Shown: positions 6,495-34,203 of the stretch, one piece after another
How positions within the stretch are numbered: position 1 is the first letter of the stretch
Layout: every line of letters starts with the position of its first letter
NCBI GenBank assembly: GCA_947589095.1
Contig: CANQBX010000041.1
Span: 1 to 34,229 of the forward strand
Source: an uncultured Lachnospiraceae bacterium
GTDB lineage: Bacteria; Bacillota; Clostridia; Lachnospirales; Lachnospiraceae
DNA length: 34,229 nt
Reading direction: 5' to 3'
Program-made: the position numbers and the translations under genes
The notes under the pieces: model-generated
Databases searched by the model: none
What the model was told of the DNA's origin: nothing
What the model saw: the letters and a program-made list of their open reading frames with translations, nothing else

Positions 6495-8687
6495 TTATGT
6501 TATCTTCCGCGTGCCGGAGCGGCCGTACATGACCTGGGCCATATTGACCGCTTCTTCCGGAGACATGTCGCTGGCGATCATATTTTTGACCGCGGTGCCA
6601 ATGGAAAATTCGTAATCCCAGATGGAACAGCCATCCGGCGTCGGCTGGGAACTGACGCCGCGGCTTCCCAGGGCGAAGCTTTCCTGAGTGGCCGGCAGCC
6701 ACGGGAAGATCACAAAGTTTTTGAAATTATTGTAGGTATCTGCCAGAGGGGAGGTGCCTCCCAGCCGCACGATCATCGTGGAGATGTCCGGTGTGAAATA
6801 CCAGCGGAGGAATTCCCGGCAAGCTTCCACGTTCTTTGAATAGCGGCAAATGCCGACCACGCCGCCCCCCAGAAGAGGCCGGCGGCCGGGTACTACGGCA
6901 GCGCCGATCTTGCCGATCATATGGGACCGGCCGGAGCTGATGATATTGGCGGCGTAGTTGGAGTAGACGACGGTCATAGCCACGGATCCCTCCGTCAGCA
7001 GCCGGACGCAGCCCCGCCATGACTGAGGCCGGCCGGCAAAATCCAGCATTCGGAGATACTGGCGCATGGCCTCGACCATTTCCCCGGTCCGGATAGCGGG
7101 GCCGGAAGCTTTCTGCGGGTCGTCCGGGACATTCGCCAGGTAATAAGGCATGAAATCACTGGCAGTGGCAAAAGAGGTCTGGTCCATGATGGTAGTTCCG
7201 TACCGGGTGGGCGAATTGGGACTGCAGGCGGCGGTGAAAAACTCCGCGGTCTGCAGGTACTGCTCAATGGTAACAGGCACGGACAGAGTCTCATGATACC
7301 GCTCAAAATAAGCGCGGCGCAGCAGCGTGTCGTCGAACAGGTCGCTCCGATACAGCAGAAGCTGGACGCTGGGATCGAAGGGCAGGGTGTACATGGCGCC
7401 GCCTGAAAGGGAATAATTGTCATAATTCCCCCGGATCAGCGTCTGCGGAAGAGTCTCAGGCGTGATGCCGGCCTCGCTTAAAGGCATATAGGTCTTTCTG
7501 CCCATAACGTCCATGCGGGCCACATCCATCCGGATCAGGTCATAGCAGAAGTCGTCGCTCAGCATGTCGGTGGTAGCGGCCAGATCCTCCGCGGAGGTGC
7601 GTATCAGCTTTAAATGGATCCCGCTTTCCGCCTCAAACATGGGCAGAAGCTTATCCAGCGCGTTGGTCGTGGGAGTGTCAAGCGTGAGCATGGTCAGCGT
7701 GCGAACGGCTTTTTTCGGGATCTGAGGCAGAGCCTGCGGGAAACCGCCGTCTTCCATGGTGATGACCGGCGGCATGGATTCTTTTTGGCGTGACCGACGG
7801 ATGATCTGATCCGCGATCCGCACGCCCATCTGGCTGAAATCCAGCCGGCAGGCAAGAAAATCCGCCGGCGCCAGACCGCCGGAATTGGAGAGCGTGATAA
7901 TCTCCGGGCGTTCTTTCGCGTAGGAGATCCGCAGAGCGCTCAGAACGGCTTCGGCCCGGGAAAGGCTGCTGGTCACGATGGCGTCGAAACGGACGCCGGC
8001 CTGGACGATGTCGAAGGCGGTGTTGATGGCCAGGTTAAAGGTCGAGGTGAAATGCCGGATGGAGACAGCGCTGCCGTTTACGGCGTCTTCCAGACCTTTT
8101 ATCAGCAGCTGATCGCGGGAAAAGGAGGGCGGCGTGGAGAACACGGCTACCTCCCTGCGGCCGCTGTCCAGGATATGGCGTCCGATGGCCGTACCGATCT
8201 TCTCATAGTCAAAGCGGATGAACATATCGTTGGGCCGGACGGGTTTTCCGTCCCGGTCGATGTATATGACAGGGCATGGAAGATCCCTGTAGAGTTCTTC
8301 ACCGGAATTTCCCAGGCAGGAAACAGTCACTACGGCTGTCAGTCCCGACTGGGGAATGCGTTTCAGGATCGCTTCCTCGATACTGGCGATATCGTTGGTC
8401 GGATAGACGTTCACATCATAATCCGCCTTGAAAAGCGTGGTCTGAACCGCGTTGTACAGATCCAGATAGATATCCTCGCAGAGAGAGGGAAGAATCAGGA
8501 CGACCGTCCGCGTGATCCCCTGCTTCAGCAGCTGGGCCTGAACGTTGGGTACATAACCCAGCTTTTTGGCGGCGTTCTCCACCAGACGGATTTTCTCAAT
8601 ACTGACTTTGCCGGTTTTGTTCAGAACGTTGGATACGGTGCCGTGGGAAACGCCCGCTTCCCTGGCGATGTCTTTGATCGTAGGCAT
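6495..8687 (-). CDS. LacI-family regulator fused to a solute-binding-protein domain
   Basis: This is a 730-residue protein without a signal peptide. Residues 1-55 are a LacI helix-turn-helix and hinge (PTIKDIAREAGVSHGTVSNV, then KKLGYVPN). Residues about 58-320 form a LacI-type periplasmic-binding-like sensor (VVLILPSLCEDIY). Residues about 327-725 resemble an ABC extracellular solute-binding protein (SBP_bac_1-like: LTMLTLDTPTT, FEAESGIHLKLI, YDLIRMDVARMDV, MYTLPFDPSVQLLLY). LacI proteins are normally about 330-350 residues, so this is a double-sensor fusion. The start at 8687 has AGGAGG 6 nt upstream and begins exactly at the LacI motif; longer frames add 54 implausible residues. It is divergent from a sugar-type ABC operon, its likely target. 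Whether the SBP domain binds the imported ligand is inference. Confidence 0.88.
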   Translation of the reverse strand: MPTIKDIAREAGVSHGTVSNVLNKTGKVSIEKIRLVENAAKKLGYVPNVQAQLLKQGITRTVVLILPSLCEDIYLDLYNAVQTTLFKADYDVNVYPTNDIASIEEAILKRIPQSGLTAVVTVSCLGNSGEELYRDLPCPVIYIDRDGKPVRPNDMFIRFDYEKIGTAIGRHILDSGRREVAVFSTPPSFSRDQLLIKGLEDAVNGSAVSIRHFTSTFNLAINTAFDIVQAGVRFDAIVTSSLSRAEAVLSALRISYAKERPEIITLSNSGGLAPADFLACRLDFSQMGVRIADQIIRRSRQKESMPPVITMEDGGFPQALPQIPKKAVRTLTMLTLDTPTTNALDKLLPMFEAESGIHLKLIRTSAEDLAATTDMLSDDFCYDLIRMDVARMDVMGRKTYMPLSEAGITPETLPQTLIRGNYDNYSLSGGAMYTLPFDPSVQLLLYRSDLFDDTLLRRAYFERYHETLSVPVTIEQYLQTAEFFTAACSPNSPTRYGTTIMDQTSFATASDFMPYYLANVPDDPQKASGPAIRTGEMVEAMRQYLRMLDFAGRPQSWRGCVRLLTEGSVAMTVVYSNYAANIISSGRSHMIGKIGAAVVPGRRPLLGGGVVGICRYSKNVEACREFLRWYFTPDISTMIVRLGGTSPLADTYNNFKNFVIFPWLPATQESFALGSRGVSSQPTPDGCSIWDYEFSIGTAVKNMIASDMSPEEAVNMAQVMYGRSGTRKIT

Positions 8688-8739
8688 AAAATACCTCCTG
8701 ACTGATGCCCTGTCTTGTGGAAATCTATCTATTATTAAT

Positions 8740-8768
8740 AAGATAGCAGAAATCGGAAGGATTCGCAA
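8740..8768 (-). promoter_or_regulatory. Promoter of the LacI-SBP fusion gene
   Basis: On the minus strand TTGCGA (8768-8763), a 17-bp spacer and TATCTT (8745-8740), about 40 bp upstream of the ribosome binding site. The match is moderate. Confidence 0.45.
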
Positions 8769-8773
8769 GAGAA

Positions 8774-8795
8774 ATTGGACAAATATTGGACAAAA
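8774..8795. repeat. Tandem 11-bp direct repeat near the regulator promoter
   Basis: ATTGGACAAAT (8774-8784) is followed at once by ATTGGACAAAA (8785-8795), just upstream of the -35 of the regulator gene. Copies spaced one helical turn apart suggest a regulator site, possibly autoregulatory. No binding protein is known. Confidence 0.5.
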
Positions 8796-8966
8796 AATCA
8801 AACAAAGATTGATACGATGAAATTTACCAATTAAATTAGAACGAACCAATTACAAAAACAGGCGCCGCTTCCGCGGATTACTGCGAATATTTGGAAATAA
8901 ATACGGCGTCAAACGGATATATATAAAATAATTCGAAAATTAAGTTATAAAATTTGAAAATTGATG

Positions 8967-9021
8967 TTGACACGTACCAATCAATGGTATATAATCATGA
9001 TCATAGGATATCCTGATCATG
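8967..9021 (+). promoter_or_regulatory. ABC operon promoter with two palindromic operator candidates
   Basis: Perfect TTGACA (8967-8972), 17 bp and perfect TATAAT (8990-8995). The spacer holds TACCA-N5-TGGTA (8975-8989), exactly between -35 and -10. Directly after the -10, covering the start site, a second dyad (8996-9021) has arms CATGATC/GATCATG around AGGATATCCT with two extra bases on the left. A consensus promoter with operators in the spacer and at +1 fits tight repression, probably by the divergent LacI-type protein. Confidence 0.65.
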
Positions 9022-22724: not shown

Positions 22725-22808
22725 AAATAGAGTAAGACGATACGCGTATGGCGGTCATATTTAAAAGTGCGTAAGTCCGGAAAGAGATCAGAAAGGCAGG
22801 AGATCGTT

Positions 22809-25325
22809 ATGGGAAAATGGCAGAGACATTTGTATCAGCCGGTACTCCCTCTGGGAGAGGACGGCCGGCGGGTGACTGGAAGCGAGGCGCATATCGCGCT
22901 TTCACGGAAGGCGGCCGGGGAAGGGATGGTGCTTCTGAAAAATGAGAGGGAGTGCCTTCCGCTTGCCGCGGGCGCGAAGGTGGCGCTGTTCGGCAAGGGT
23001 ACGATCGACTATGTGAAAGGCGGAGGCGGAAGCGGCGACGTGACGGTCGCCTATGTGCGGAACCTGTACGAAGGCATGAAACAGATGGAAAGCCGGGGAA
23101 AGGTAGAACTGTTCCATGAGCTTCCCCTGTTCTATGAGAAGGAGATCGCCGTCCAATATGAGGCAGGAGCCGTTCCAGGCATGACGAAGGAACCGGTTCT
23201 GCCGGAGGAGCTGCTGGAGCGGGCCGGGAAGGCAGCCGATATCGCTGTCGTGACCTTCTGCCGGTTCTCGGGGGAAGGCTGGGATCGGGTCAGTACGGAT
23301 GGGACGGAGCAGAAAGAGAAGGCGGAGGAGAACCCGGTTCTGCGCATGGGAAAGGACATCTTCGAGCGGGGGGATTTCTACCTGACGAAGGCGGAGGAGG
23401 CGCTGCTTGAGGCGGTCTGCAGCCGGTTCAGCCAGGTGATCGTGGTGATGAATGTGGGCGGCATGGTAGACAGCAGCTGGTTTAAAGACAATAACCGGAT
23501 CGGCGCGGTGCTGATGGCGTGGCAGGGCGGTATGGAAGGCGGCCTGGCCGCCGCGGAAGTGCTGTGCGGGGATGTGAATCCGTCCGGACGGCTGGCGGAT
23601 ACATTTGCGGCGTCGCTGGAAGACTATCCGTCTACCGCCGGCTTCCATGAGTCGGATGATTATGTGGATTATACCGAGGACATATATGTGGGCTACCGGT
23701 ATTTTGAGACGATTCCGGGGGCTTCGGGGAAGGTCAATTATCCGTTCGGGTTCGGACTGTCGTATACCGATTTTGATATCAGCGTTGAGAGCGCGGCGCG
23801 GCAGGGAGACGAGATTGTCTTTGACGTGCGGGTGAAGAATACGGGCAGGCGCGCGGGCAAGGAAGTCGTGCAGGTCTATTTCGGCGCGCCCCAGGGGAAG
23901 CTGGGAAAGCCGGCCAGGGCGCTTGCGGCGTTTCAGAAGACGAAGCTGCTGGAGCCGGGGGAGAAAGTGAGCCTTCGGCTGTCGTTTCCGGTCGCGTCCA
24001 TGGCTTCCTACGACGATAGGGGGAAGGTCTGCGCCAGCGCGTACATTCTGGAGCCGGGAGAGTACGCCTTCTATATCGGCGAGAATGTACGCGACGCGGT
24101 GAAGGCGGATTTCGTGTACTGCCAGGAAACCGTTCGGGTGACGGAGCAGCTGACCTCACAGGCGGCGCCCCATAAGCTTTCCGGACGGCTTCTGGCCAGC
24201 GGGAAATATGAGAAACTGCCGGCGGGTGAGGCGGCAGGAACGGTAGGGTCTGCCTGCGGAGAAAATACAGGAGCAGGAGGACAGCCGTGTTGCGGAAACG
24301 CAGAGCCGGAGAATACGGCGGCAGCGGCATGCCGTGTGGAACCGGAAGCGGCGCTTCCGCCCCAGGATCCGGCGGAGCTGGAAGGCGTGCGGCCCGCTGT
24401 AAGGGGAATTGCCCGGACCCGCCGTGACCGGATCGGCGACAGGCCCCAGCTTCTGGATGTGGCGGAAGGCCGGATGACGCTGGATGATTTTGTGGAGCAG
24501 CTAAGCGACGGCGACCGGATCCATTTGCTGGGCGGCCAGCCTAACACCGGCGTAGCCAATACCTTTGGCATGGGCAACCTTCCGGAGTACGGCGTGCCGA
24601 ACGTGATGACGGCGGATGGGCCTGCGGGTCTGCGCATCTGGAAGACCTGCGGGATATTTACGACCGCGTTTCCGTGCGCGACTCTGCTGGCGTGCACCTG
24701 GGACCCGGAGTTAGCGGAGCAGGTGGGAGCCGCTGCGGCGGATGAACTGAAGGAGAATAATCTCGGCCTCTGGCTGGCGCCGGCGGTGAATATCCACCGA
24801 AGCCCTTTGTGCGGGCGGAATTTTGAGTATTATTCCGAGGATCCGCTGCTGGCCGGCCGGGTCGCCGCGGCGATGGTGCGGGGCATCCAGTCGAAGAAGA
24901 TCGGCGCCTGCGCGAAGCATTTCGCCTGCAATAATAAAGAGACGAACCGCAAAGACAGCGATTCCCGCGTATCCGAGCGGGCGCTGCGGGAGATCTATCT
25001 GAAACCGTTTGAGATCCTTGTAAAGGAATCGCAGCCGTATATGATCATGACCTCCTACAATCTGGTCAACGGCGTGCGGGCTTCCGAGAATAAGGATCTG
25101 CTGACCGGTATCCTGCGGGGCGAATGGGGCTATACGGGCCTTGTGACTACGGACTGGTGGACCCATGGAGAACATTACCGGGAGATCAAGGCGGGCAACG
25201 ACGTCAAGATGGGAACCGGCTACCCGGAAAGGGTGGAAGAGGCCCTTGCGAAAGGTCTGATCAGCCGGGAGGAGATCGCCGCCTGCGCCCGGCGCGTGCT
25301 GGAGATGATACTTAAGATGGAATGA
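22809..25325 (+). CDS. GH3 beta-glucosidase-like enzyme with reversed domain order
   Basis: This is an 838-residue glycoside hydrolase of family 3, probably a cytoplasmic beta-glucosidase or beta-xylosidase, without a signal peptide. The order is unusual. The GH3 C-terminal alpha/beta domain comes first (about 30-310; RKAAGEGMVLLKNERECLPL, ALFGKGTIDYVKGGGGSGD). The fibronectin-III-like domain is next (about 320-450). A Cys/Gly/Glu-rich linker follows (about 475-540). The catalytic TIM-barrel domain is last, with KHFACNN near 702 and the nucleophile D782 in VTTDWW. This arrangement is known in some rumen and gut Firmicutes beta-glucosidases. AGGAG lies 6 nt before ATG 22809. It is flanked by hairpins, so probably monocistronic. 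Confidence 0.9.
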   Translation: MGKWQRHLYQPVLPLGEDGRRVTGSEAHIALSRKAAGEGMVLLKNERECLPLAAGAKVALFGKGTIDYVKGGGGSGDVTVAYVRNLYEGMKQMESRGKVELFHELPLFYEKEIAVQYEAGAVPGMTKEPVLPEELLERAGKAADIAVVTFCRFSGEGWDRVSTDGTEQKEKAEENPVLRMGKDIFERGDFYLTKAEEALLEAVCSRFSQVIVVMNVGGMVDSSWFKDNNRIGAVLMAWQGGMEGGLAAAEVLCGDVNPSGRLADTFAASLEDYPSTAGFHESDDYVDYTEDIYVGYRYFETIPGASGKVNYPFGFGLSYTDFDISVESAARQGDEIVFDVRVKNTGRRAGKEVVQVYFGAPQGKLGKPARALAAFQKTKLLEPGEKVSLRLSFPVASMASYDDRGKVCASAYILEPGEYAFYIGENVRDAVKADFVYCQETVRVTEQLTSQAAPHKLSGRLLASGKYEKLPAGEAAGTVGSACGENTGAGGQPCCGNAEPENTAAAACRVEPEAALPPQDPAELEGVRPAVRGIARTRRDRIGDRPQLLDVAEGRMTLDDFVEQLSDGDRIHLLGGQPNTGVANTFGMGNLPEYGVPNVMTADGPAGLRIWKTCGIFTTAFPCATLLACTWDPELAEQVGAAAADELKENNLGLWLAPAVNIHRSPLCGRNFEYYSEDPLLAGRVAAAMVRGIQSKKIGACAKHFACNNKETNRKDSDSRVSERALREIYLKPFEILVKESQPYMIMTSYNLVNGVRASENKDLLTGILRGEWGYTGLVTTDWWTHGEHYREIKAGNDVKMGTGYPERVEEALAKGLISREEIAACARRVLEMILKME

Positions 25326-25404: not shown

Positions 25405-25998
25405 ATGGACAGAGAACGTTTTGAGAAACAGCTGCAGTTTATTCTTGAGATCGATAAGGAGAAGAATATCCTCCGCCAGACCCATTTAAGCGGCCATGGC
25501 CGCCGGGAGAACGACGCGGAGCACGCGTGGCACATGGCGGTCATGATCTGGCTTCTGCGGGAGTATTCCAACGAGGAGTTCGATCTGGCGAGGGCCATGA
25601 TGATGGCGCTGATCCATGATATCGTGGAGATCGACGCAGGGGATACCTACGCCTACGACGCGCAGGGGCTGGCGACCCAGAAGGAGCGGGAGGAGAAAGC
25701 CGCAGAGCGGATCTTCGGTCTGCTGCCGGACGAACAGCGGAAGGAGCTGCGCGGGCTGTTCGAAGAGTTTGAGTCTTACGCGACGCCGGAGGCGCGTTTC
25801 GCCCATACGATGGACAATCTGCAGCCTCTCCTCCTGAACGATTCCAACGGCGGCGCCGACTGGCGGGAACACGGCGTCTGCCGCTCCCAGGTGGAAGGCC
25901 GCCATAAGACGACGGCGCGGGGGTCGAAGGAGATCAGCGAGTTTGCGATGGGGCTGATCCATGAGAATGTGAAGAAGGGGAATATACGGGACGAGTAG
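25405..25998 (+). CDS. HD-domain phosphohydrolase (HD_3/YfbR-like)
   Basis: This is a 197-residue cytoplasmic metal-dependent phosphohydrolase related to 5'-deoxynucleotidase YfbR and HDDC2. The metal ligands appear as His40 (DAEHAWH), the His71-Asp72 pair with Glu75 (LIHDIVEID) and a distal Asp in HTMDNLQPL. The likely substrate is a nucleoside monophosphate, which the sequence alone does not prove. The ATG at 25405 has GGAGAG upstream. Its last 65 bp overlap the end of the convergent ROK regulator gene, an overlap in which both frames stay open. Confidence 0.88.
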   Translation: MDRERFEKQLQFILEIDKEKNILRQTHLSGHGRRENDAEHAWHMAVMIWLLREYSNEEFDLARAMMMALIHDIVEIDAGDTYAYDAQGLATQKEREEKAAERIFGLLPDEQRKELRGLFEEFESYATPEARFAHTMDNLQPLLLNDSNGGADWREHGVCRSQVEGRHKTTARGSKEISEFAMGLIHENVKKGNIRDE

Positions 25999-27253
25999 GA
26001 GACAACCTGTTTTTCAGCTGTTCCGGGTTATACGCATAGACCCATCCGTAATCGCGGGATTTTAAGAATCGGGTAAATAATTCCGCGGTCGCGCCAAGAG
26101 GAAGAATGTTTTCCAGCGTGGAAGAGGTCCGTATTTCAAAATCCCGGGCCAGCAGCACCACATTTTCGCGCAGGGAGGCGGAGAGCTGATCGAGAAAGTA
26201 GTCTCCCAGCTCCAGCATAAAGCCATGGAGGATGACCAGCTCCGGATTCAAAATATTGACCATATTGGCGATGGCCACTCCCAGCAGGGACGCGGACTGC
26301 CGGACATAGAATCTGCACATCAGGTCGCCTTCATCCAGTGCCCGGCGCAGATCCTGTACGGTCAGTTCCCTGGAACCGTCATAATAGGCGTTAAGGCTGG
26401 AAAATACGCCTTGTTTCAAAGCGGCCTGAATTTTGTGGGCCAGGGCCGGAAAAGCGGTGTCCGCTTCTACGCAGCCGGGTTTTCCGCAGTAGCAGATGGT
26501 ATCGCTCTGCCCTCTGGCGCCGATGACCGTATGGCCAATCTCCCCTGCCACTCCGCTGTGTCCGCCTACAGGGATTCCATTGCAGCAGATAGAGGAGCCG
26601 ATGCCGTTGGAGAGTTCAATACAGATAAAGTCCCTTGCTCCCTTTGCCTGTCCGAACTGCTGCTCGGCCAGGGCCGGCATGGTAACGGCGCTGAAGGCGC
26701 TGACGGGGACGGAAACGACCTTTTCCAGATGCGGTTTCAGCTCCAGGCGTTCCCAGTCGGAAAAGTGCGTATAGCTTGATACAAGGGACGACTGCATTTT
26801 GTAGCGGGCCGGGTCGTAGAGCGGGTCGCAGATTCCGATCCCGATTATTTTCTTATCGGAGTAAAGCTTAAGCAGCCGGCATACCTGGTCCGCGATCTGT
26901 TCCGTAAGATTTGCCGGCAGACGGTCTGGCGGCAGTTCCGCTTTGATTTCCTGCAGGATCTCGCCGTTGATCTGCGTAACCATATATGTGATGGAGGCGG
27001 AGGACACGGAAATGCCGATGGCGCAGATATGGTTGTGGTTAATCTCCAGCAGCTCCCGCTTGCGGCCGGGACCGTTGGAAATAAAACCGGCCTCCCGGAT
27101 CAGTCCCTCTTCCAGCATATCCTTGATGAGGGCGCTGACGGTAGCCGGCCGGTAGTCTGTGAAAGTAATGAGCTCGGTCCGGCTGATGGGGCCAAGGTGA
27201 TTGATCAGATTTAGGATCAGATGTCTTTTGTGTTCGTAATAGTTCGTTGCCAT
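25934..27253 (-). CDS. ROK-family transcriptional regulator (NagC/XylR-like)
   Basis: This is a 439-residue regulator. Residues 1-75 form a winged helix-turn-helix (HKRHLILNLINHLGPISRTE, then SALIKDMLEEGLI). A ROK domain follows, with GEIGHTVIG and the zinc motif CYCGKPGCVE at about residues 252-261. The usual N-terminal phosphate-binding DxGGT is replaced by GISVSSASI, so it is a sensor and not a sugar kinase. Such proteins repress sugar genes until a sugar or sugar phosphate binds. It is divergent from the NagA-like operon, which it probably controls. The ATG at 27253 follows GGAGGG; a longer frame to 27373 is not supported. The last ~35 residues overlap the HD gene and look like read-through. 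Confidence 0.9.
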   Translation of the reverse strand: MATNYYEHKRHLILNLINHLGPISRTELITFTDYRPATVSALIKDMLEEGLIREAGFISNGPGRKRELLEINHNHICAIGISVSSASITYMVTQINGEILQEIKAELPPDRLPANLTEQIADQVCRLLKLYSDKKIIGIGICDPLYDPARYKMQSSLVSSYTHFSDWERLELKPHLEKVVSVPVSAFSAVTMPALAEQQFGQAKGARDFICIELSNGIGSSICCNGIPVGGHSGVAGEIGHTVIGARGQSDTICYCGKPGCVEADTAFPALAHKIQAALKQGVFSSLNAYYDGSRELTVQDLRRALDEGDLMCRFYVRQSASLLGVAIANMVNILNPELVILHGFMLELGDYFLDQLSASLRENVVLLARDFEIRTSSTLENILPLGATAELFTRFLKSRDYGWVYAYNPEQLKNRLSPTRPVYSPSSHSHGSAPSQTR

Positions 27254-27443: not shown

Positions 27444-27463
27444 TATATTTCCTGTGAAATATA
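27444..27463. promoter_or_regulatory. Palindromic operator candidate for the ROK regulator
   Basis: TATATTTC-CTGT-GAAATATA is a perfect 8+8 palindrome in the divergent region, 53 bp upstream of the operon -35. Known NagC/Mlc-type ROK sites also have A/T-rich TATTT...AAATA arms. Binding by the adjacent regulator is inferred. Confidence 0.5.
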
Positions 27464-27516: not shown

Positions 27517-27545
27517 TTGACACGGATATGGTTTGGGATTATAAT
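27517..27545 (+). promoter_or_regulatory. Consensus promoter of the terminal sugar operon
   Basis: Perfect TTGACA (27517-27522), 17 bp and perfect TATAAT (27540-27545), about 105 bp before the first gene. A consensus promoter beside a ROK regulator gene suggests repression-based control. Confidence 0.75.
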
Positions 27546-27651
27546 AAAAATTACAAAAAAGTAAGTAATAGAATTAAAAAATGATTAAACACCCGAGCAG
27601 ACAATTTTGTTAAGAACAAAAAGGTAAAAATATGGACAGGTGGGAAAGAGA

Positions 27652-28794
27652 ATGAAAGCGATTACGAATGCGGTGCTGGTGATGAGAGACCATTTGATTC
27701 CCGAGGCAGCGATCCTGATAGAAGAGGGAAGGATCGTGGATTTTGGGGAGATGGGGAAGCTGGATATTCCGGCCGGCTGCCGGATTATAGACGCCGGAGG
27801 CCTGTTTGCAGGGCCGGGACTGATCGATATTCACACGCATTGCGGAGGAACATACTGGTTCTCGGAGGATCCGGCGAAGGCGGCGGCGCATCATCTGAAG
27901 CATGGCACGACTACGGTGCTTCCGGCGCTTTATTTTAATATGACGCAGGCGGAATACCTGAAATCCATACAGACGATCCGGGAGGCTGTGGCGAATGGGG
28001 CCTGTGCCAATATCGGGGGACTCTATATGGAAGGCCCTTATCTCAATCCAAAGTTTGGCTGCGACCGGGAGTCCAATCCATGGAAGGGGCCCGTTGAGAG
28101 GGAGGATTATCTCCCTATTATAAAGGCGGCGGCGGATCTGGCCCGGGTCTGGGCCGTGGCGCCGGAGCGGCCGCGTATTCTGGATTATGTGAAGGATGTA
28201 ATTGCATACGATCCCGACGCGGTGTTTTCGGTTGCCCACAGCGAGGCGGCGCCGTCGCAGATCGAGGCGCTGCTGCCCTATGGGCTGCGCATCGGCACCC
28301 ACCATACGAATGCCACCGGAGATCTTGCGAAGTATCCGGAGTGCCGCGGCGTATGTGTGGATGAGACCGTAAACTATAATTCCGATATTTATGCGGAACT
28401 GATCTGCGACAGCCATGGGATCCACGTAGATCCCTACATGCTGAGGCTGGTGCGGAAGATCAAGGGAGACGACAGGATCATCCTTATTTCGGACGCGTTC
28501 AGTATGGACGGGCCGGTTCCCCCGGGTTATGACGGCGTGACGGACATTAACTTTGATTATGAGGGCGAGATCGCCGGATCGAAGCTGACACTGGACCAGG
28601 CGTGCTATAACATGATGAAGCACACGGGCGCGTCCATTGTAAATGTGTTCCAATACGCCTCTTACAATCCGGCCAGAGCGGTGGGGTTTAGCGACCGGGG
28701 AGAGATTGCGGTTGGGAAATGTGCAGACCTGGTGATCACGGATCACCGGATGAATATTAAAAATGTGATATTGAAAGGAGAGTTACAGGAATGA
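27652..28794 (+). CDS. N-acetylglucosamine-6-phosphate deacetylase-like amidohydrolase
   Basis: This is a 380-residue amidohydrolase of the NagA group. Metal ligands are visible: His61/His63 in DIHTHCGG, Glu127 in YMEGPYLN, His196 in SVAHSE, His217/218 in GTHHTNATGD, and the catalytic Asp281 in ISDAF. ELICDSHGIHVDP is a NagA-type substrate loop. The usual HLFNAM motif is changed to HHTNATG, so the acyl-amino sugar phosphate may not be GlcNAc-6-P. ATG 27652 is preferred over GTG 27640, because AGGTGGG lies at suitable distance. It is the first gene of a seven-gene operon and its stop overlaps the next start (ATGA). Confidence 0.85.
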   Translation: MKAITNAVLVMRDHLIPEAAILIEEGRIVDFGEMGKLDIPAGCRIIDAGGLFAGPGLIDIHTHCGGTYWFSEDPAKAAAHHLKHGTTTVLPALYFNMTQAEYLKSIQTIREAVANGACANIGGLYMEGPYLNPKFGCDRESNPWKGPVEREDYLPIIKAAADLARVWAVAPERPRILDYVKDVIAYDPDAVFSVAHSEAAPSQIEALLPYGLRIGTHHTNATGDLAKYPECRGVCVDETVNYNSDIYAELICDSHGIHVDPYMLRLVRKIKGDDRIILISDAFSMDGPVPPGYDGVTDINFDYEGEIAGSKLTLDQACYNMMKHTGASIVNVFQYASYNPARAVGFSDRGEIAVGKCADLVITDHRMNIKNVILKGELQE

Positions 28795-29750
28795 ACGACA
28801 TTATTTTTGACCCGCCGACAAAATTTGACTTCAAATGCGGAGACTATGTGCCCTTTAAGGACCGGGAGGTCTGCGAGCGCCTGCGCAGGATAAGCGGAAA
28901 AGAACTGGAGAAGCACCCGAATCCCGATTTCCATATCAAAGTGATGATGAATCCGCACCCGGTGCTGATCGCGACGTTATTTTCCAGGCTGAAGGAGGCG
29001 TCGGAGGCAGGCAGGAAGTACACCATGATCCTGGGAAATCCGGAACCGGAGACGTATATCCCATTGGCCCAGCTCATCAATTATTTCCAGGTAGACTGCA
29101 GAAAGCTGCATATCTTTGCCATGGACGAGTGGGCGGACGATTGTGGGAATATCGCGCCGGAGACCTATGAGGCGGGATTCGCCCACTCCATGCTGAAATA
29201 CTTTGTATACCAGATCGATCCGAAGCTTCGGATGCCCATGGAGAATGTGCATTATCCCAACAACCGGAACATTGACCATTATTCCAGGCTGATCACCGAG
29301 ATCGGCGAGGGCGGCGCGGACATCTGCTCCTCCTCTCCGGGCTGGACCGGCCATATGGCCTTTATCGATCCGGTATCCGAGTTCATGACGGAGGATATCG
29401 ATGAGTGGCTGAATATGGAAGCGCGCATTGTGACGCTGCATCCGCTGACCGTGGCGCAGAATTCCCTGCACGGCGTGTTCGGGCAGTCCGGCTATGTAGC
29501 CAGCGTGCCGCCGAAGGCCGCGACCATCGGCCCTGTGGACGTGAAGAACGCCCGTGAGCGTATCGAGGTGCATGCCCTGCTGACCAATAATACATTCTCA
29601 TCCTGGCAGCGGATGACCTCCCGGCTGGTGCTCCATGGACCGGTGACGCCTGCGATTCCCAGTTCCATGCTGCAGCTGATGAAAACTCAGGTGTATGTGA
29701 GCGAGGAGATCGCGGCGCCCTTCGAGTGCTGGGAGAAAGTAGGGTACTAA
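28791..29750 (+). CDS. NagB-fold glucosamine-6-phosphate isomerase-like protein
   Basis: This 319-residue protein is longer than classical NagB (about 240-270). The substrate-binding Asp-Glu of NagB is present as D112-E113 in FAMDEWAD. The catalytic loop GxGxDGHIAFNEP is altered to SSPGWTGHMAFIDP. The Asp corresponding to E. coli D141 is Thr186, His188 is kept, and the Glu corresponding to E148 is Asp193. Deamination of glucosamine-6-phosphate is therefore doubtful. It may isomerise or deaminate another sugar phosphate made by the upstream deacetylase, with which it is translationally coupled (4-nt overlap). AAAGGAG lies upstream of the ATG. Confidence 0.78.
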   Translation: MNDIIFDPPTKFDFKCGDYVPFKDREVCERLRRISGKELEKHPNPDFHIKVMMNPHPVLIATLFSRLKEASEAGRKYTMILGNPEPETYIPLAQLINYFQVDCRKLHIFAMDEWADDCGNIAPETYEAGFAHSMLKYFVYQIDPKLRMPMENVHYPNNRNIDHYSRLITEIGEGGADICSSSPGWTGHMAFIDPVSEFMTEDIDEWLNMEARIVTLHPLTVAQNSLHGVFGQSGYVASVPPKAATIGPVDVKNARERIEVHALLTNNTFSSWQRMTSRLVLHGPVTPAIPSSMLQLMKTQVYVSEEIAAPFECWEKVGY

Positions 29751-29831
29751 GGGGAATTCTGCCGAATGAAACGGCGTCAGATAAATACGGACGCAGCTGC
29801 CGGAAAAGAAAAATAAATAAGGAAAATAAAT

Positions 29832-30554
29832 ATGGATAAGGAGTTCAAAATCCGCGCCCCGTTTTTTGAGTTCGGGCCGAAGGCATACCTCTATGGGCAG
29901 GAGATGCTGCGCCTGGCGCAGAAGCTGGACGAGGCCGCGGAAAGGTACGACGTTGACATCATTGTCACGCCGCAGTATACCGACATCCCGCTGCTTGCGC
30001 AGAACACAAGGCGCATCAGGGTGTTTGCCCAGCACATGGACTATCTTCCCGTCGGCAGAGGACTGGGATCGGTCCTGCCCGAGGCGGTAAAAGCGGCGGG
30101 CGCCGTCGGCGTGATGCTTAACCATGCGGAAAAGAAGCTGACGATGGACGAGATCGAAAAGACGATCCGCCGCGCCGACGAGGTCGGGCTTGCGACGATC
30201 GTCTGCGCCGACACGCCGGAGGAGCTTGTCGAGATCGCGAGGATGTCGCCCAACCTTCTTGTGGCGGAGCCAACCGAGCGGATCGGCACGGGGCAGCCAA
30301 GCGATGAAAATTATGTCAGGGAGACGATTCGCCTGGTGAGGCAGATCAACCCCGACATTATGGTGCTTCAGGGGGCGGGCATCTCAAATGGTGCCGATGT
30401 TTATAATACCATTGCCCTCGGCGCACAGGCAACCGGTTCGACGAGCGGCATCATCAAGGCCCCTGACCGGTTTGCCATGGTGGACGAGATGATATCTGCC
30501 CTGCGCCGCGCTTGGGACGACACGCACCGGGCGCAGCAAAGCGCGGGGAAGTGA
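29832..30554 (+). CDS. Triosephosphate isomerase-like protein (archaeal-type)
   Basis: This is a 240-residue TIM-barrel protein. The catalytic His68 (FAQHMD) and Glu146 (VAEPTERIGTG) are present with LNHAE and the phosphate-binding loop GAGISNG. Lys17 occurs in FEFGPKAY, where classical enzymes have NxKxY, so the Asn is missing. Length and loops fit archaeal-type TIMs. In an operon with a sugar kinase and small aldolase, the substrate could be a triose or a tetrulose/ketose phosphate (compare erythrulose-phosphate isomerases). The gap to the previous gene is 81 bp and the ribosome site (AAGGAAAA) is weak. Base and codon use change from here onward. Confidence 0.82.
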   Translation: MDKEFKIRAPFFEFGPKAYLYGQEMLRLAQKLDEAAERYDVDIIVTPQYTDIPLLAQNTRRIRVFAQHMDYLPVGRGLGSVLPEAVKAAGAVGVMLNHAEKKLTMDEIEKTIRRADEVGLATIVCADTPEELVEIARMSPNLLVAEPTERIGTGQPSDENYVRETIRLVRQINPDIMVLQGAGISNGADVYNTIALGAQATGSTSGIIKAPDRFAMVDEMISALRRAWDDTHRAQQSAGK

Positions 30555-30645
30555 CTAAGTGACTGTTCGGCCGGTCTGCGCGGTGTCTGCCCCGGCGAAG
30601 CGAGGGCGTCTGCCGCGGAGGATTCTAAACAAGAGGAGGAACGCT

Positions 30646-31266
30646 ATGGAATTCAAAGTATTTCAAAAGGAACTGGAGCTTCAGTCAAGGGGCTGGATCC
30701 CCACCTTCCATGATGTCTCGAAGGAGATTATGGAGATTGTCAGGGCATCCGGCGTCAGGAACGGGACGGTCACGATCGCGTCGCACCACACCACCTGCTC
30801 CGTCATGGTTCAGGAGTGTTCCCACGACATCGACTCGTTTGACCTGGAATACCTGCAGCACGACCTGCTCGACATCATGCGCAGGATCGCGCCCGATTTC
30901 AAGGAGGAGCATCAGTACCGCCATCCCGGTCCGATCCATGCGCAGTTCGGCCGCTATGTCAATGAGCCGGGCGACTTCACCAGCATGAACACCGACGGCC
31001 ATCTTCGCTCCGTGTTCTTCGGCAGAAGCGAGACCATGACCGTCAAGGACGGCGAGCTGGACGGCGGGGAGTTTGCGCACGTCTACTTCGTCGACTGGGA
31101 CCAGGTCCGTGCCCGCCGCCGCCAGCTTAACGTGACCGTCATGGGTACGAGTGAGGACGTCGGCGACCGGAAGTGGAACGACGGGAAGGTCATAGACACA
31201 AACCACAAGTTTACCGACGAGGAAAAGGCATTCGACATACATTACACGCTCCAGCAGGAGAGGTGA
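30646..31266 (+). CDS. YjbQ family (UPF0047) protein, long variant
   Basis: This 206-residue protein is longer than usual YjbQ proteins (about 130-140). The family signature is present: SHHTTCSVMVQECSHDID, YRHPGPIH, then MNTDGHLRSVFFGRSETM and GEFAHVYFVDWDQV. YjbQ proteins form a small metal-binding-like barrel. Some have weak thiamine-phosphate-synthase side activity, but the real function is unknown. Extra residues surround the YRHPGP segment. ATG 30646 follows AGGAGG; the frame from 30559 is untranslated leader. Its place among sugar-phosphate enzymes suggests a role in the same pathway. Confidence 0.85.
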   Translation: MEFKVFQKELELQSRGWIPTFHDVSKEIMEIVRASGVRNGTVTIASHHTTCSVMVQECSHDIDSFDLEYLQHDLLDIMRRIAPDFKEEHQYRHPGPIHAQFGRYVNEPGDFTSMNTDGHLRSVFFGRSETMTVKDGELDGGEFAHVYFVDWDQVRARRRQLNVTVMGTSEDVGDRKWNDGKVIDTNHKFTDEEKAFDIHYTLQQER

Positions 31267-31273
31267 CGGCACC

Positions 31274-31879
31274 ATGCTTGAGAAGAAGGTTCTTGACGCC
31301 GCGCTGACGGCATATGACATCGAGGCGGACTGCATACGCGGTCTGAAGGAGGCGTTCGACGGGCAGGCGTTTTCCCGGGCGGTCGAGATGCTCTGCGCCG
31401 CGCCGAGGATAGGGGCTGCGGGCTGCGGCCATTCAGGCATCGCGTGCAGGCATTTCGCCCATCTGATGTGCTGCATCGAGCGTCCCGCCCGTTTCCTCTC
31501 TCCTGCCGAAGCGGTCCACGGCGCATCCGGATTCCTGCAGAAGGGCGACGTCATGGTGTTCGCGTCGCGCGGCGGAAGGACAGGCGAACTCCTGCCGATC
31601 GCCGCTATCTGCAAGGCAAAGGGCGTGGGTATCATTACCATCACCGAGAATATGGAGTCGCCGCTTGCCGATGCGGCGGACGTGGTGTTAAAGCAGTACG
31701 TAAACCGGGAGACGGACAGATATAACATGCAGGGAACCACCAGCACGACGGCGCTTTGCGTGCTGTTCCACGCCATCCAGGCGGCAATGATCGAGAAGAC
31801 GGGCTACACGCCCGAGCAGTTCGCCCTCATCCATCCGGGCGGAGCCGTGGGCAAGCGGCTGCATGGGGAAGCGGGATGA
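31274..31879 (+). CDS. SIS-domain sugar-phosphate isomerase
   Basis: This 201-residue protein has a single SIS domain (IGAAGCGHSGIACRHFAHLM, then VFASRGGRTGELLPI). Near the end HPGGAVGKRL resembles the active-site region of arabinose-5-phosphate isomerases (KdsD/GutQ), but no CBS domains follow. It also resembles 6-phospho-3-hexuloisomerase and AgaS-like proteins. It probably interconverts an aldose and ketose phosphate, or deaminates and isomerises an amino sugar phosphate. It starts 7 nt after the previous stop, with a GGAGAGGTGAC site. Confidence 0.85.
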   Translation: MLEKKVLDAALTAYDIEADCIRGLKEAFDGQAFSRAVEMLCAAPRIGAAGCGHSGIACRHFAHLMCCIERPARFLSPAEAVHGASGFLQKGDVMVFASRGGRTGELLPIAAICKAKGVGIITITENMESPLADAADVVLKQYVNRETDRYNMQGTTSTTALCVLFHAIQAAMIEKTGYTPEQFALIHPGGAVGKRLHGEAG

Positions 31880-31964
31880 GCAGGGCAAATGTGCCTGGCG
31901 AGGCAAAAGGACTTAGCGGGGCAGGCGGCTGAGTGGGGAAATGGGTCGGTCGGGGGAACATAGT

Positions 31965-33485
31965 ATGTACATAGGCGTAGATTTGGGCACCACCAACATA
32001 AAAGCGGCGCTTTACGACGGCGACATGAGGCTGATCGGCAGGAAAAGCCGGCTTGCCGCGTACATAAGAGATGGCAGCCGGGTGGAGTTTGACGCCGCAG
32101 GCTACCGCGACGCGGTCTTTTCGCTATTGCGGGAACTGCTGAGCGAAAACGGCGCGGCCCGGGTGCGTCAGATTGCCTTTACCGGGCAGGCGGAGTCCCT
32201 TGTGGTGCTGGACGGGGACGGAAACCCGCTGATGAACGCGATATCCTGGATGGACGAGCGATCGGTCAGGGAGTGCGTACAGCTTTCCGAAAGGTTCCCG
32301 CCCGAGGTATGCCGCCGCGTCACGGGCCAGCTGTCCATACTGCCGACGTGGCCCGCAACCAAGATCCTGTGGCTTAAGAACAACATGCCGGAGGTTTTTG
32401 AAAAGGCGGCGTGCTACATGCTGCTGAAGGACTATATCGTCCGGTGCTTTACGGGAAAGGCAGCGGCGGACATGTCTGTCGCAACATTTTCCTTCTATTT
32501 TGATATCTATCGGAAATGCTACTGGGGCGAGATGCTGGACGCCATCGGCATAACGGAGGATAAGCTCCCCCCGCTGTGCGAGCCGTGCACCGTCGCGGGC
32601 ACGCTGACGGACGAGGCAGCCGAGAGGCTGGGACTTGTGGGCGGGGCGGCGTGCGCATGCGGGGCAGTCAGCAAGGGTACGGCCGTCAACACCGGCACGC
32701 TGGATCATTTTGCGGGAATGATAGGCACCGGCAACCTTTCCCCGGGCGGCATAACGCTGTCGACGGGCACGGTGATGGCGCTTGCCGCGCTGTGGGATCC
32801 GTCCCTGCCGCCGCCGGGCGGCATTGCCCTGCATTACGGCTTTATGCCGGACAGTTTCGTGCTCCTGCCCGTGGCCGAGAGCGGCGGGGTGAGCCTCGAA
32901 TGGTTCCGGCGGCGCTGTATGCCGGATCAGACCTTTGCGGAGATCGACAGGGTCGCCGCAGAGCGGCGGGATGAGGGGATCCTTTTTCTGCCCTACATCG
33001 TCGGCGTTAACGCGCCGGAGATGGATGGGGACGCGGTCGGCGTATTCTGGGGACTTAGGCAGGAACACGACGCGTACGACATGGCGAAAGCGGTGATGGA
33101 GGGCGTGGCGTTCGTGCTGCGCAAAAACTGCGAGGCGATTGAACGCGCCGGGATCGCGCTGCGATCGATCACGGCCACGGGCGGCGGCGCGAAAAGCGAT
33201 CTGTGGTGCGCGATCCAGGCAGATGCGACGGGGCTTTCTGTGCGCGTCCCCGCCGAAAAGGAGGCGGCGTGCCTCGGCGCGGCGATGATCGCCGCGGTGG
33301 GCGACGGGAGATTCGCGGACCTTGCGGCGGCCTGTGCGCACTGCGTGACATTTCAAAAGGTATATGAGCCCCATAAGAGCGAAGCGGTTGAAACGAAATA
33401 CCGCCGTTTCTGCGCACTGTATGATGCGGCGCTGAAAATCGGCAGAATAAACGGACAAGGAGACGAAGATGAAGCTTCTGATTGA
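31965..33485 (+). CDS. FGGY-family carbohydrate kinase
   Basis: This is a 506-residue sugar kinase of the xylulokinase/gluconokinase group, phosphorylating a ketose or polyol with ATP. The N-terminal phosphate motif is YIGVDLGTTNIKAALYDG (residues 2-19). Substrate-side segments include AFTGQAESLVVLD and ISWMDERS. The C-terminal FGGY signature is ATGGGAKSDLWCAIQADATG. Its exact sugar is unknown. I chose ATG 31965 because the family begins there; GGGGGAA lies upstream. The last 17 bp overlap the next gene, implying translational coupling. Confidence 0.92.
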   Translation: MYIGVDLGTTNIKAALYDGDMRLIGRKSRLAAYIRDGSRVEFDAAGYRDAVFSLLRELLSENGAARVRQIAFTGQAESLVVLDGDGNPLMNAISWMDERSVRECVQLSERFPPEVCRRVTGQLSILPTWPATKILWLKNNMPEVFEKAACYMLLKDYIVRCFTGKAAADMSVATFSFYFDIYRKCYWGEMLDAIGITEDKLPPLCEPCTVAGTLTDEAAERLGLVGGAACACGAVSKGTAVNTGTLDHFAGMIGTGNLSPGGITLSTGTVMALAALWDPSLPPPGGIALHYGFMPDSFVLLPVAESGGVSLEWFRRRCMPDQTFAEIDRVAAERRDEGILFLPYIVGVNAPEMDGDAVGVFWGLRQEHDAYDMAKAVMEGVAFVLRKNCEAIERAGIALRSITATGGGAKSDLWCAIQADATGLSVRVPAEKEAACLGAAMIAAVGDGRFADLAAACAHCVTFQKVYEPHKSEAVETKYRRFCALYDAALKIGRINGQGDEDEASD

Positions 33486-34203
33486 CGATGCGAATATTGA
33501 AAAAATAAAGGCCATTTACCGCCTGTACCCGGTCGACGGCGTGACTACCAACCCGTCGATCCTTGCGAAGACCGGCAGAAATCCATACGCCGTCCTGTGC
33601 GAGATACGCGAGTTCATAGGCGACGGGGCCCAGCTGCACGCGCAGGTCATCTCCCGCACGGCCGGGCAGATGGTGGAGGAGGCCCGCAAGATGGCGGGCA
33701 TCCTGGGCCAAAACCTGTTTATCAAGGTTCCGTCGGTCCCCGAGGGCTTCCGCGCGATGCGCGAGCTTTCCCGTGAAGGTTTCAACGTCACCGCGACCGT
33801 GGTATACACGCCGATGCAGGCGTTCCTTGCCGCAAAGTCCGGGGCGGACTACGTTGCGCCGTATGTCAACCGGATCGACAATCTGGGCGCGGACGGCGTG
33901 CGTACAACGAAGGCCATACAGGACATGCTGGCTAAAAACGGGCTGAAAACCGAAATTCTGGCTGCAAGCTTCAAAAACTCCCAGCAGATCCAGGCTCTCT
34001 GCGAGTATGGCGTGGGGGCGGCTACCGCCGCGCCCGACATTATCGAAAATCTTGTTAAGAACGCATCCGTCGACAGCGCGGTGGAGGCCTTTATCGCGGA
34101 TTTTGAGGGACTCTGCGGCAGGGGCAGGAACATGCTGGACTGCGATTTACCGTCGTCGATTGTAATCCGAGATTCCATACCCAGCATCCCGGATGAACAG
34201 TAA
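33469..34203 (+). CDS. Fructose-6-phosphate aldolase/transaldolase-like protein
   Basis: This is a 244-residue class-I aldolase of the FSA/TalC group. The Schiff-base lysine is K86 in NLFIKVPS, VTTNPSI (25-31) is conserved, and ATVVYTPMQAFLAAKSGADYVAPYVNR carries the second half of the active site. Members split fructose-6-phosphate or sedoheptulose-type substrates, or transfer dihydroxyacetone. It is slightly longer than FSA (about 220), with an extra C-terminal tail after DFEGLCGRG. It overlaps the kinase gene by 17 bp. No terminator is visible in the last 26 bp, so the operon may continue. Confidence 0.92.
   Translation: MKLLIDDANIEKIKAIYRLYPVDGVTTNPSILAKTGRNPYAVLCEIREFIGDGAQLHAQVISRTAGQMVEEARKMAGILGQNLFIKVPSVPEGFRAMRELSREGFNVTATVVYTPMQAFLAAKSGADYVAPYVNRIDNLGADGVRTTKAIQDMLAKNGLKTEILAASFKNSQQIQALCEYGVGAATAAPDIIENLVKNASVDSAVEAFIADFEGLCGRGRNMLDCDLPSSIVIRDSIPSIPDEQ

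Follow-up and report, generated by a model that had tools for sequence, protein, structure and literature searches.

The window analysed here is the complete contig CANQBX010000041.1 (34,229 nucleotides, hereafter C41) of the 4.1 Mb, 192-contig assembly GCA_947589095.1 from an uncultured Lachnospiraceae bacterium. Towards its right end lies a compact operon of seven genes encoding relatives of the amino-sugar enzymes NagA and NagB, a TIM-like isomerase, a YjbQ protein, a SIS protein, an FGGY kinase and a small class I aldolase of the fructose-6-phosphate aldolase (FSA) type. Loci and genomes of relatives are referred to by L and G numbers where they need to be told apart. The operon and its immediate upstream region contain the following features.

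25934..27253 (ATG at 27253), minus strand: ROK-family transcriptional regulator, divergent, likely the local regulator (PF00480, 140 bits)
27444..27463, no strand assigned: palindrome TATATTTC-CTGT-GAAATATA, a candidate operator ahead of the promoter that may have arisen by chance
27517..27545, plus strand: sigma-70-type promoter, perfect TTGACA-17-TATAAT (motif scan)
27652..28794, plus strand: NagA-like amidohydrolase, probable deacetylase/amidase (TIGR00221, 159.5 bits, below the cut-off of 225.65)
28791..29750, plus strand: member of the NagB superfamily, a probable isomerase/deaminase whose substrate may be an unphosphorylated sugar (TIGR00502, 29.3 bits, below the cut-off of 236.9)
29832..30554, plus strand: TIM-like isomerase of archaeal type whose substrate side is altered (archaeal-type subfamily model NF003302, 195.9 bits, above the cut-off of 132; TIM equivalog TIGR00419, 93.1 bits, below the cut-off of 130.6)
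30646..31266, plus strand: long-form YjbQ (UPF0047) of 206 residues, proposed sugar-phosphate isomerase (PF01894, 87.3 bits, above the cut-off of 27)
31274..31879, plus strand: KpsF/GutQ-like SIS sugar-phosphate isomerase consisting of the SIS domain only (PF01380, 60.6 bits; TIGR00393, 110.9 bits, below the cut-off of 203.7)
31965..33485, plus strand: xylulokinase-like FGGY carbohydrate kinase (TIGR01312, 311.7 bits, below the cut-off of 380.25)
33469..34203, plus strand: class I aldolase of the FSA/transaldolase type (TIGR00875, 201.6 bits, below the cut-off of 245.95)

The seven open reading frames (ORFs) are co-directional and closely packed between 27652 and 34203: the NagA-like and NagB-like genes overlap in an ATGA at 28791-28794, the FGGY and FSA-type genes share 17 bases (33469-33485), and the remaining gaps measure 81 (nagB-tim), 91 (tim-yjbQ), 7 (yjbQ-sis) and 61 or 85 bases (sis-fggy). 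Alternative starts are an in-frame GTG at 27640 for the NagA-like and an ATG at 31941 for the FGGY gene. The promoter has a chance expectation of 0.00 in 100 shuffles, and the nagB-tim gap contains none of the terminator-like sites that the scan listed, which fits a single transcript without proving it. ORF, motif and Pfam scans bear out the sequence-only reading, which had described seven tightly spaced or overlapping genes behind a perfect promoter and beside a ROK regulator.

Six of the seven proteins match a Pfam superfamily, the NagB-like protein having no Pfam match at 0.001. Among the NCBIfam matches listed (25 of 61 models in the case of the NagA-like protein), the cut-off is reached by none of the NagA-like, NagB-like, FGGY, FSA-type, SIS and YjbQ proteins. 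Elsewhere the genome encodes a canonical TIM (313 bits) plus a second partial TIM, as well as a NagA (312 bits) and a NagB (285.4 bits) that each exceed their cut-off; the operon copies are therefore paralogues, probably with jobs of their own. The operon is distinct from the standard operons for N-acetylglucosamine (GlcNAc), N-acetylgalactosamine (GalNAc) or pentoses, as the sequence-only reading had suspected from the gene mix.

TIM and YjbQ form a recurrent pair. Among 391 genomes of the class, 48 have a TIM match (E <= 1e-20) and 46 a YjbQ match (E <= 1e-15, counting both long and short forms), and all 46 YjbQ genomes also possess TIM. The two genes lie less than 3 kb apart in 43 of these 46 genomes, which are distributed over 23 families (Fisher 6e-58, uncorrected for shared ancestry). 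As co-occurrence extends to 46 of the 48 TIM genomes, we consider YjbQ part of the core together with TIM, which gives a place to a protein whose role had been called open, and the recurrent pairing suggests that YjbQ helps to rearrange sugar phosphates. The protein scores just under the TIGR00149 model (64.2 bits, cut-off 67.75), and residues H48, E57, D61, H119, D150, D152, R157 and R159 are present in 91/91 alignment rows. Its structural model, built from the window protein and 21 others, reaches a pLDDT of 71 and yields 17 fold matches at E <= 0.001, all of them YjbQ structures without established function. For E. coli YjbQ, a thiamin-phosphate synthase activity is cited (PMC3091646, with reference to Morett 2008).

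The TIM-like partner retains the catalytic Lys, His and Glu (K17, H98 and E146 in the window protein) in all 82 sequences aligned (54 belonging to the window's type, 28 to a second type), with 1hg3 as single reference for a true TIM. The substrate side is rebuilt in the window's type, where Gly (G15) takes the place of the Asn preceding the Lys in 54/54 and the Ser following the His has become Ala (A99) in 44/54 or Cys in 7/54. In the second type the Asn is Gly in 18/28 and retained in 9/28, and the loop-8 Leu of 1hg3 is replaced by Gly in all 82 sequences. From this alignment, the window's type probably preserves the enediol chemistry on a changed substrate. Since the substrate-side Asn and Ser are replaced and the gene keeps company with YjbQ so consistently, the operon TIM is probably not a spare TIM.

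The nine second-type proteins that keep the Asn, with the Ser alone changed, belong to class II aldolase settings (L094-L096, L124-L129), of which L126 lacks YjbQ. In the other eight loci, from six genomes (L094, L095, L096, L124, L125, L127, L128 and L129), the TIM-YjbQ pair adjoins an FBA/GatY-type class II aldolase of the dihydroxyacetone phosphate (DHAP) type; family calls were made on the members of L094, L096, L127 and L128, and the other loci were assigned by similarity. Six of the eight add a kinase or a phosphotransferase system (PTS): an FGGY kinase with ribulose-phosphate 3-epimerase in L125 and L127, a glucitol-type PTS with an oxidoreductase bearing a DRL_cat domain in L124 and L128, and a galactitol-type PTS with an iron alcohol dehydrogenase in L094 and L096. 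Neither kinase nor PTS was recognised in the stretch read of L095 and L129. Such class II aldolases require a ketose-1-phosphate or a bisphosphate, and the presence of a pentulose kinase alongside a 3-epimerase suggests a ketose-5-phosphate; in the FGGY-kinase and galactitol-PTS clusters, no other isomerase was recognised that would convert ketose-omega-phosphate to ketose-1-phosphate. TIM and YjbQ are the only bridging candidates recognised there, which constitutes the strongest argument for YjbQ being a sugar-phosphate isomerase. If the DRL_cat protein is a DXR-like reductoisomerase, L124 and L128 would be compatible with the breakdown of a polyol, for instance 2-C-methylerythritol, through 1-deoxyxylulose-5-phosphate to DHAP and acetaldehyde.

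We also note a DRL_cat oxidoreductase near the TIM-like gene in L124, L126 and L128 (scanned in L128, assigned by similarity in the others), DRL presumably standing for DXR-like reductoisomerase, and an oxidoreductase-like ORF beside YjbQ in L125.

The first two operon proteins retain catalytic residues of their namesakes and differ at the positions aligned with the phosphate contacts. In the NagA-like family, the metal and catalytic residues H61, H63, E127, H196, H217, H258 and D281 are found in 26/26 sequences, and the residue aligned with the phosphate-binding Arg varies across the same set. The AlphaFold model of the NagB-like protein (AF2; built from the window protein and 20 of 30 relatives, pLDDT 84) has E. 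coli NagB, 1dea, as its top match in the Protein Data Bank (TM 0.74 by target length, E 1.8e-15), with 6-phosphogluconolactonases ranking behind, and a profile search of Protein Data Bank sequences agrees. The catalytic Asp and His are preserved as D112 and H188 in 31/31 sequences, and the catalytic Glu is Asp in 29/31 (compared with the genome's own NagB). In E. coli NagB the residues concerned are numbered 72, 143, 148, 172 and 208, with Asp72 and His143 catalytic and Arg172, Lys208 and the phosphate loop binding the 6-phosphate. The phosphate-site Lys aligns with Gln273 (31/31) by hhalign and MAFFT alike; the counterpart of the phosphate-site Arg depends on the alignment method, being Leu226 by hhalign (31/31) or Gly231 by MAFFT. 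Global hhalign alone, at low confidence, matches the ATGSTP phosphate loop of the genome's own NagB to GNPEPE, and Arg274 and Arg278, adjoining the aligned Lys position, are invariant in the family.

Based on these alignments, the substrate of the NagB-like protein would be a free sugar, or a sugar held by its phosphate in another way, and a function as the NagB of an N-acetylhexosamine-6-phosphate route is unlikely. The earlier suggestion of a deaminase or isomerase therefore holds at the level of fold and catalytic residues, whereas the N-acetylhexosamine-6-phosphate NagB itself is disfavoured by the score (29 against 237 bits) and by the non-basic phosphate positions. An ordinary GlcNAc pair was rejected for NagA-like and NagB-like proteins together, on account of sub-cut-off scores and non-conserved phosphate positions.

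Downstream of YjbQ, the SIS protein is closest to 3fxa in the Protein Data Bank (E 2.6e-46) and reaches 50.7 bits with the HxlB model (cut-off 160). The FGGY protein matches xylulose kinase 2itm at E 8.4e-51. In the FSA-type aldolase, K86, R135 and S167 occur in 37/37 rows; we take them to be the Schiff-base Lys (K86) and the phosphate-side Arg and Ser, and with these kept the enzyme should want an omega-phosphate.

These conserved residues lend weight to a conventional route, in which an N-acetylhexosamine would be deacetylated and deaminated to a ketohexose, phosphorylated by the FGGY kinase to ketohexose-6-phosphate and cleaved by the FSA-type enzyme to dihydroxyacetone and glyceraldehyde-3-phosphate, with TIM equilibrating the triose phosphates, SIS serving as second deaminase or isomerase and YjbQ as an accessory. 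The preserved catalytic residues of the NagA-like protein, the NagB fold with its Asp and His, the FSA Schiff-base Lys with its phosphate-side Arg and Ser, and the intact TIM triad, accompanied by the Asn in the aldolase loci, all agree with it. Such a route sits poorly with the canonical TIM, NagA and NagB elsewhere in the genome and with the replaced Asn and Ser in the window's TIM type; it also leaves the near-perfect TIM-YjbQ pairing unexplained, and that pair recurs without recognised amino-sugar genes. We regard it as rather unlikely.

The distribution of the genes in other genomes offers a further view of the system. The sequence-only reading had looked to the Lachnospiraceae for conservation of the gene order, yet a full-length YjbQ at least 84% identical occurs in only 2 of 150 genomes of that family, one of them the window's own, with weaker or partial matches in 5 further genomes. 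The gene set instead recurs in metagenome-assembled genomes of Clostridia and Victivallales, many from herbivore guts. A scan of named genomes gave 360 relatives, of which we retained the best 80 by YjbQ identity (83-91%), many of whose loci are cut by contig ends: they are mostly Clostridia metagenome-assembled genomes, besides three Victivallales or Victivallaceae and one Anaerobacterium chartisolvens, with a herbivore host named in 37 of the 80 titles and the label RUG, presumably denoting rumen, in 12 more. Family alignments left out sequences below 0.8 or above about 1.3 times the length of the window protein, L093 was dropped as a duplicate of L091, and ORF choice in the locus maps was greedy, so that an antisense ORF was sometimes taken (e.g. 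c14). Less than 8 kb from YjbQ, the 80 loci contain SIS in 70, FGGY in 51, a close TIM in 44, a second-type TIM in 14, FSA in 32 and an L-fucose/arabinose-isomerase-like protein, c6, in 21. None of these 21 c6 loci has NagB; L111 nevertheless holds both c6 and NagB. A search of the window's genome for c6 gave no match, and shows little as it lacked a positive control. The sulfoquinovose (SFT) pathway was dismissed as a candidate, c6 of the relatives matching the SftI model at only 44.5 of 700 bits.

The frequent SIS and FSA neighbours bear on glycolaldehyde assimilation, a natural version of a designed pathway, in which the FSA-type enzyme would join glycolaldehyde and glyceraldehyde-3-phosphate to arabinose-5-phosphate, SIS would convert this to ribulose-5-phosphate and TIM would supply glyceraldehyde-3-phosphate from DHAP. 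An FSA together with a KpsF/GutQ-type SIS in one operon is what such a pathway calls for, and FsaA and KdsD act on arabinose-5-phosphate in just this manner in an engineered E. coli path (PMC9947464). It is nonetheless improbable: no glycolaldehyde-producing aldolase was recognised in the window operon, the SIS protein is under the curated KpsF cut-off, and FGGY, YjbQ and the NagA/NagB-like proteins would be left unexplained.

In L016 the NagA, NagB, TIM, SIS and YjbQ genes directly adjoin one another, as they do in L060 with a different arrangement; all or several of them share one locus in L027, L039, L061, L062, L092 and L105, the last with nagA-nagB-fsa divergent from tim-sis. Of the 391 class genomes, 19 have a NagB-like match that scores over 200 bits (G168, G181, G256, G331 and G527 being dropped from 24 matching), and 16 of the 19 carry long YjbQ, compared to 32 of 391 overall (p 5e-17). 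Among 20 loci fetched around NagB-like genes, NagA-like genes are found in 14 (15 if a weak, partial match in L109 is counted), FGGY in 7, c5 in 8, a ROK regulator in 3 (L100, L108 and L112) and an ABC transporter that we take to be ribose-type in 3; the SorC label for regulators is likewise our assumption. Both the contiguity and the co-occurrence speak against two independent modules, NagA-NagB and TIM-to-FSA, being adjacent by chance in this genome. That explanation has in its favour the lower GC content at third codon positions of the NagA-like gene (0.66, against 0.74-0.81 in the other six), the finding of the NagA-NagB pair with ABC transporters and ROK regulators in L100 and L108, and the placement of NagB-like and long YjbQ on different contigs in 13 of the 16 genomes that have both; we judge it quite unlikely.

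Combining these observations, we propose that the operon encodes a catabolic pathway for an uncommon sugar, in which a carbonyl relay of TIM, YjbQ and SIS feeds the aldolase and the NagA/NagB-like and FGGY proteins act upstream. This is the reading we favour, tentatively and with clearly less than even confidence; gene content, layout, recurrence, the residue changes and the TIM-YjbQ pairing are observations, and the relay, the free-sugar role of the NagA/NagB-like proteins and the identity of the sugar are parts that we infer. The NagA-like protein would deacylate a free, unphosphorylated amino or N-acyl aldose, the NagB-like protein would isomerise or deaminate the product to a ketose, and the FGGY kinase would phosphorylate the latter. 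The TIM-like protein, YjbQ and SIS would then act in series along the sugar phosphate. The TIM-like enzyme may shift the carbonyl between the two carbons next to the phosphate-bearing CH2 (C2 to C3 from the phosphate end), comparable to LerI with erythrulose phosphate; LerI, a TpiA homologue, is reported to isomerise L-erythrulose-1-phosphate en route to erythrose-4-phosphate (PMC10733421). YjbQ would move the carbonyl one carbon on (C3 to C4), and SIS would perform the last 3-keto/2-keto or ketose/aldose step, similar to arabinose-5-phosphate isomerase or to 6-phospho-3-hexuloisomerase, which converts hexulose-6-phosphate to fructose-6-phosphate (PMC8879981). In this manner, the relay would interconvert ketose-1-phosphate and ketose-omega-phosphate without redox chemistry or a second kinase, and the three enzymes together could carry the carbonyl along the whole chain of a pentose or hexose. 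The FSA-type aldolase would finally cut the omega-phosphate form to glyceraldehyde-3-phosphate and an unphosphorylated C2 or C3 carbonyl compound (glycolaldehyde, hydroxyacetone or dihydroxyacetone). The sequence-only reading had likewise pointed to an unusual sugar, which the recurrence of the gene set and the canonical TIM, NagA and NagB elsewhere support; its ending in triose phosphates is plausible by inference.

Several findings weigh against this proposal. NagA lies within 8 kb in only 11 and NagB in only 10 of the 80 YjbQ loci, 8 of the 80 have neither TIM nor SIS nearby (some being cut by contig ends), and the separation of NagB-like and long YjbQ onto different contigs noted above counts here too. 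Two of the 48 TIM genomes, G212 and G478, have no YjbQ match at the cut-off, the G212 locus (L129) showing YjbQ in two pieces. The fold search with YjbQ gave no functional lead, and to our knowledge the one activity assigned to any YjbQ is the secondary thiamin-phosphate synthase activity of the E. coli protein. All eight TIMs of the aldolase loci retain the Asn of true TIM and may be ordinary TIMs equilibrating DHAP made by the aldolase. The HPGGAVG motif of the SIS protein is of the KpsF type, so that this protein may be a plain ketose/aldose isomerase, and if the FGGY kinase places its phosphate on the omega end, like xylulokinases, the FSA-type enzyme needs no relay. In the NagB-like protein, invariant R274 and R278 and the low-confidence loop alignment leave room for another phosphate contact.

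A wider form of the proposal, which we consider doubtful, holds that TIM-like and YjbQ proteins, with or without SIS, constitute a reusable relay that reverses the orientation of a sugar phosphate, interconverting ketose-1-phosphate and ketose-5/6-phosphate via 3-keto intermediates with YjbQ as the missing 3-keto-sugar-phosphate isomerase. If so, the product of a kinase or PTS could be presented to either a DHAP aldolase or an FSA-type aldolase, L-series ketose-1-phosphates would become D-series omega-phosphates, and part of the UPF0047 family would gain a physiological function. Such a relay would represent a general metabolic trick that does without redox chemistry or a further kinase, and would account for a common, unannotated sugar route of gut Clostridia. 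YjbQ/UPF0047 proteins are widespread, with several solved structures, and the literature examined gives no role beyond the secondary thiamin-phosphate synthase activity. Given the near-perfect pairing and the few other enzymes able to perform the isomerisation, the function of YjbQ is directly testable.

Among known systems, erythritol/threitol catabolism (LerI of the TIM family, and DerI) is alike in that a TIM homologue moves the carbonyl of a keto-sugar phosphate farther from the phosphate, after which another isomerase completes the conversion without a second kinase. Our operon differs in having no tetritol dehydrogenase, an archaeal-type TIM, YjbQ and SIS in place of DerI, and an FSA-type aldolase. 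Nag/Aga amino-sugar operons comprise the deacetylase NagA, the deaminase NagB or AgaS and a ROK regulator, and share with the present operon the NagA-like and NagB-like pair beside such a regulator; here, in contrast, both proteins are sub-cut-off, the positions aligned with the NagB phosphate contacts are not conserved, hexosamine kinase and PTS are missing from the operon, and canonical copies exist elsewhere. The xylulose/ribulose-type pathways use a related FGGY kinase, whereas this operon ends in an FSA-type aldolase and has no AraA/XylA-type isomerase, RpiB or Rpe. The SIS protein shares its fold and a predicted sugar-phosphate isomerase function with 6-phospho-3-hexuloisomerase of the ribulose monophosphate pathway and with KpsF/GutQ arabinose-5-phosphate isomerases, being nearer to the latter by score than to HxlB and under both cut-offs. 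YjbQ has the fold and the conserved His/Glu/Asp/Arg set of UPF0047 and is distinguished from other members by its long form and its tie to TIM-like isomerases and sugar genes. Within the open-access literature (CC-licensed PMC papers), we found no description of this cluster, nor any cluster whose substrate is defined biochemically.

The neighbourhoods of the relatives did not name the sugar: none of 10 larger neighbouring ORFs of the fetched loci matched a glycoside hydrolase. Five of these matched a sialate O-acetylesterase-like protein, an E1/transketolase-like protein, gyrase B, a zinc dehydrogenase and a transporter of the major facilitator superfamily, respectively, and five had no match at 1e-6. 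A protein of about 450-500 residues, c5, is a frequent partner in YjbQ and NagB-like loci (L090, L088, L102, L111, L113 and L116, with a fragment in L060); its L090 member has no Pfam or NCBIfam match, and we assume a neutral ceramidase-like fold.

Regarding the surroundings of the operon, the ROK domain scan took in 25934-27241, and the regulator scores 139.7 bits with the NagC model (cut-off 650). The last 77 bases of C41 equal the first 77 bases of contig C3, which carries a transposase-like ORF with an HTH_38 domain at 83-1471 (L003), 5 bases past the overlap; we take the ORF to be IS30, the Pfam scan showing HTH_38 only. If the 77-base overlap reflects a correct join, a mobile element would lie directly behind the operon. 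Additional operon genes beyond the window edge are unsupported, and the visible operon ends at the FSA-type gene because C3 opens with the transposase-like ORF, the adjacency of C3 being deduced from the assembly.

Elsewhere in the window, another perfect TTGACA-17-TATAAT is located at 8967-8995 (plus strand), upstream of an ABC permease gene. Near ABC transporter genes, a 784-residue ORF at 6495-8849 (minus strand) combines a LacI-type helix-turn-helix and sugar-sensor region with an extracellular solute-binding domain of the ABC type, an unusual merger of regulator and binding protein. Finally, a GH3 enzyme at 22767-25325 (plus strand) displays reversed domains, with the GH3 C-terminal domain and an Fn3 domain preceding the GH3 N-terminal domain.

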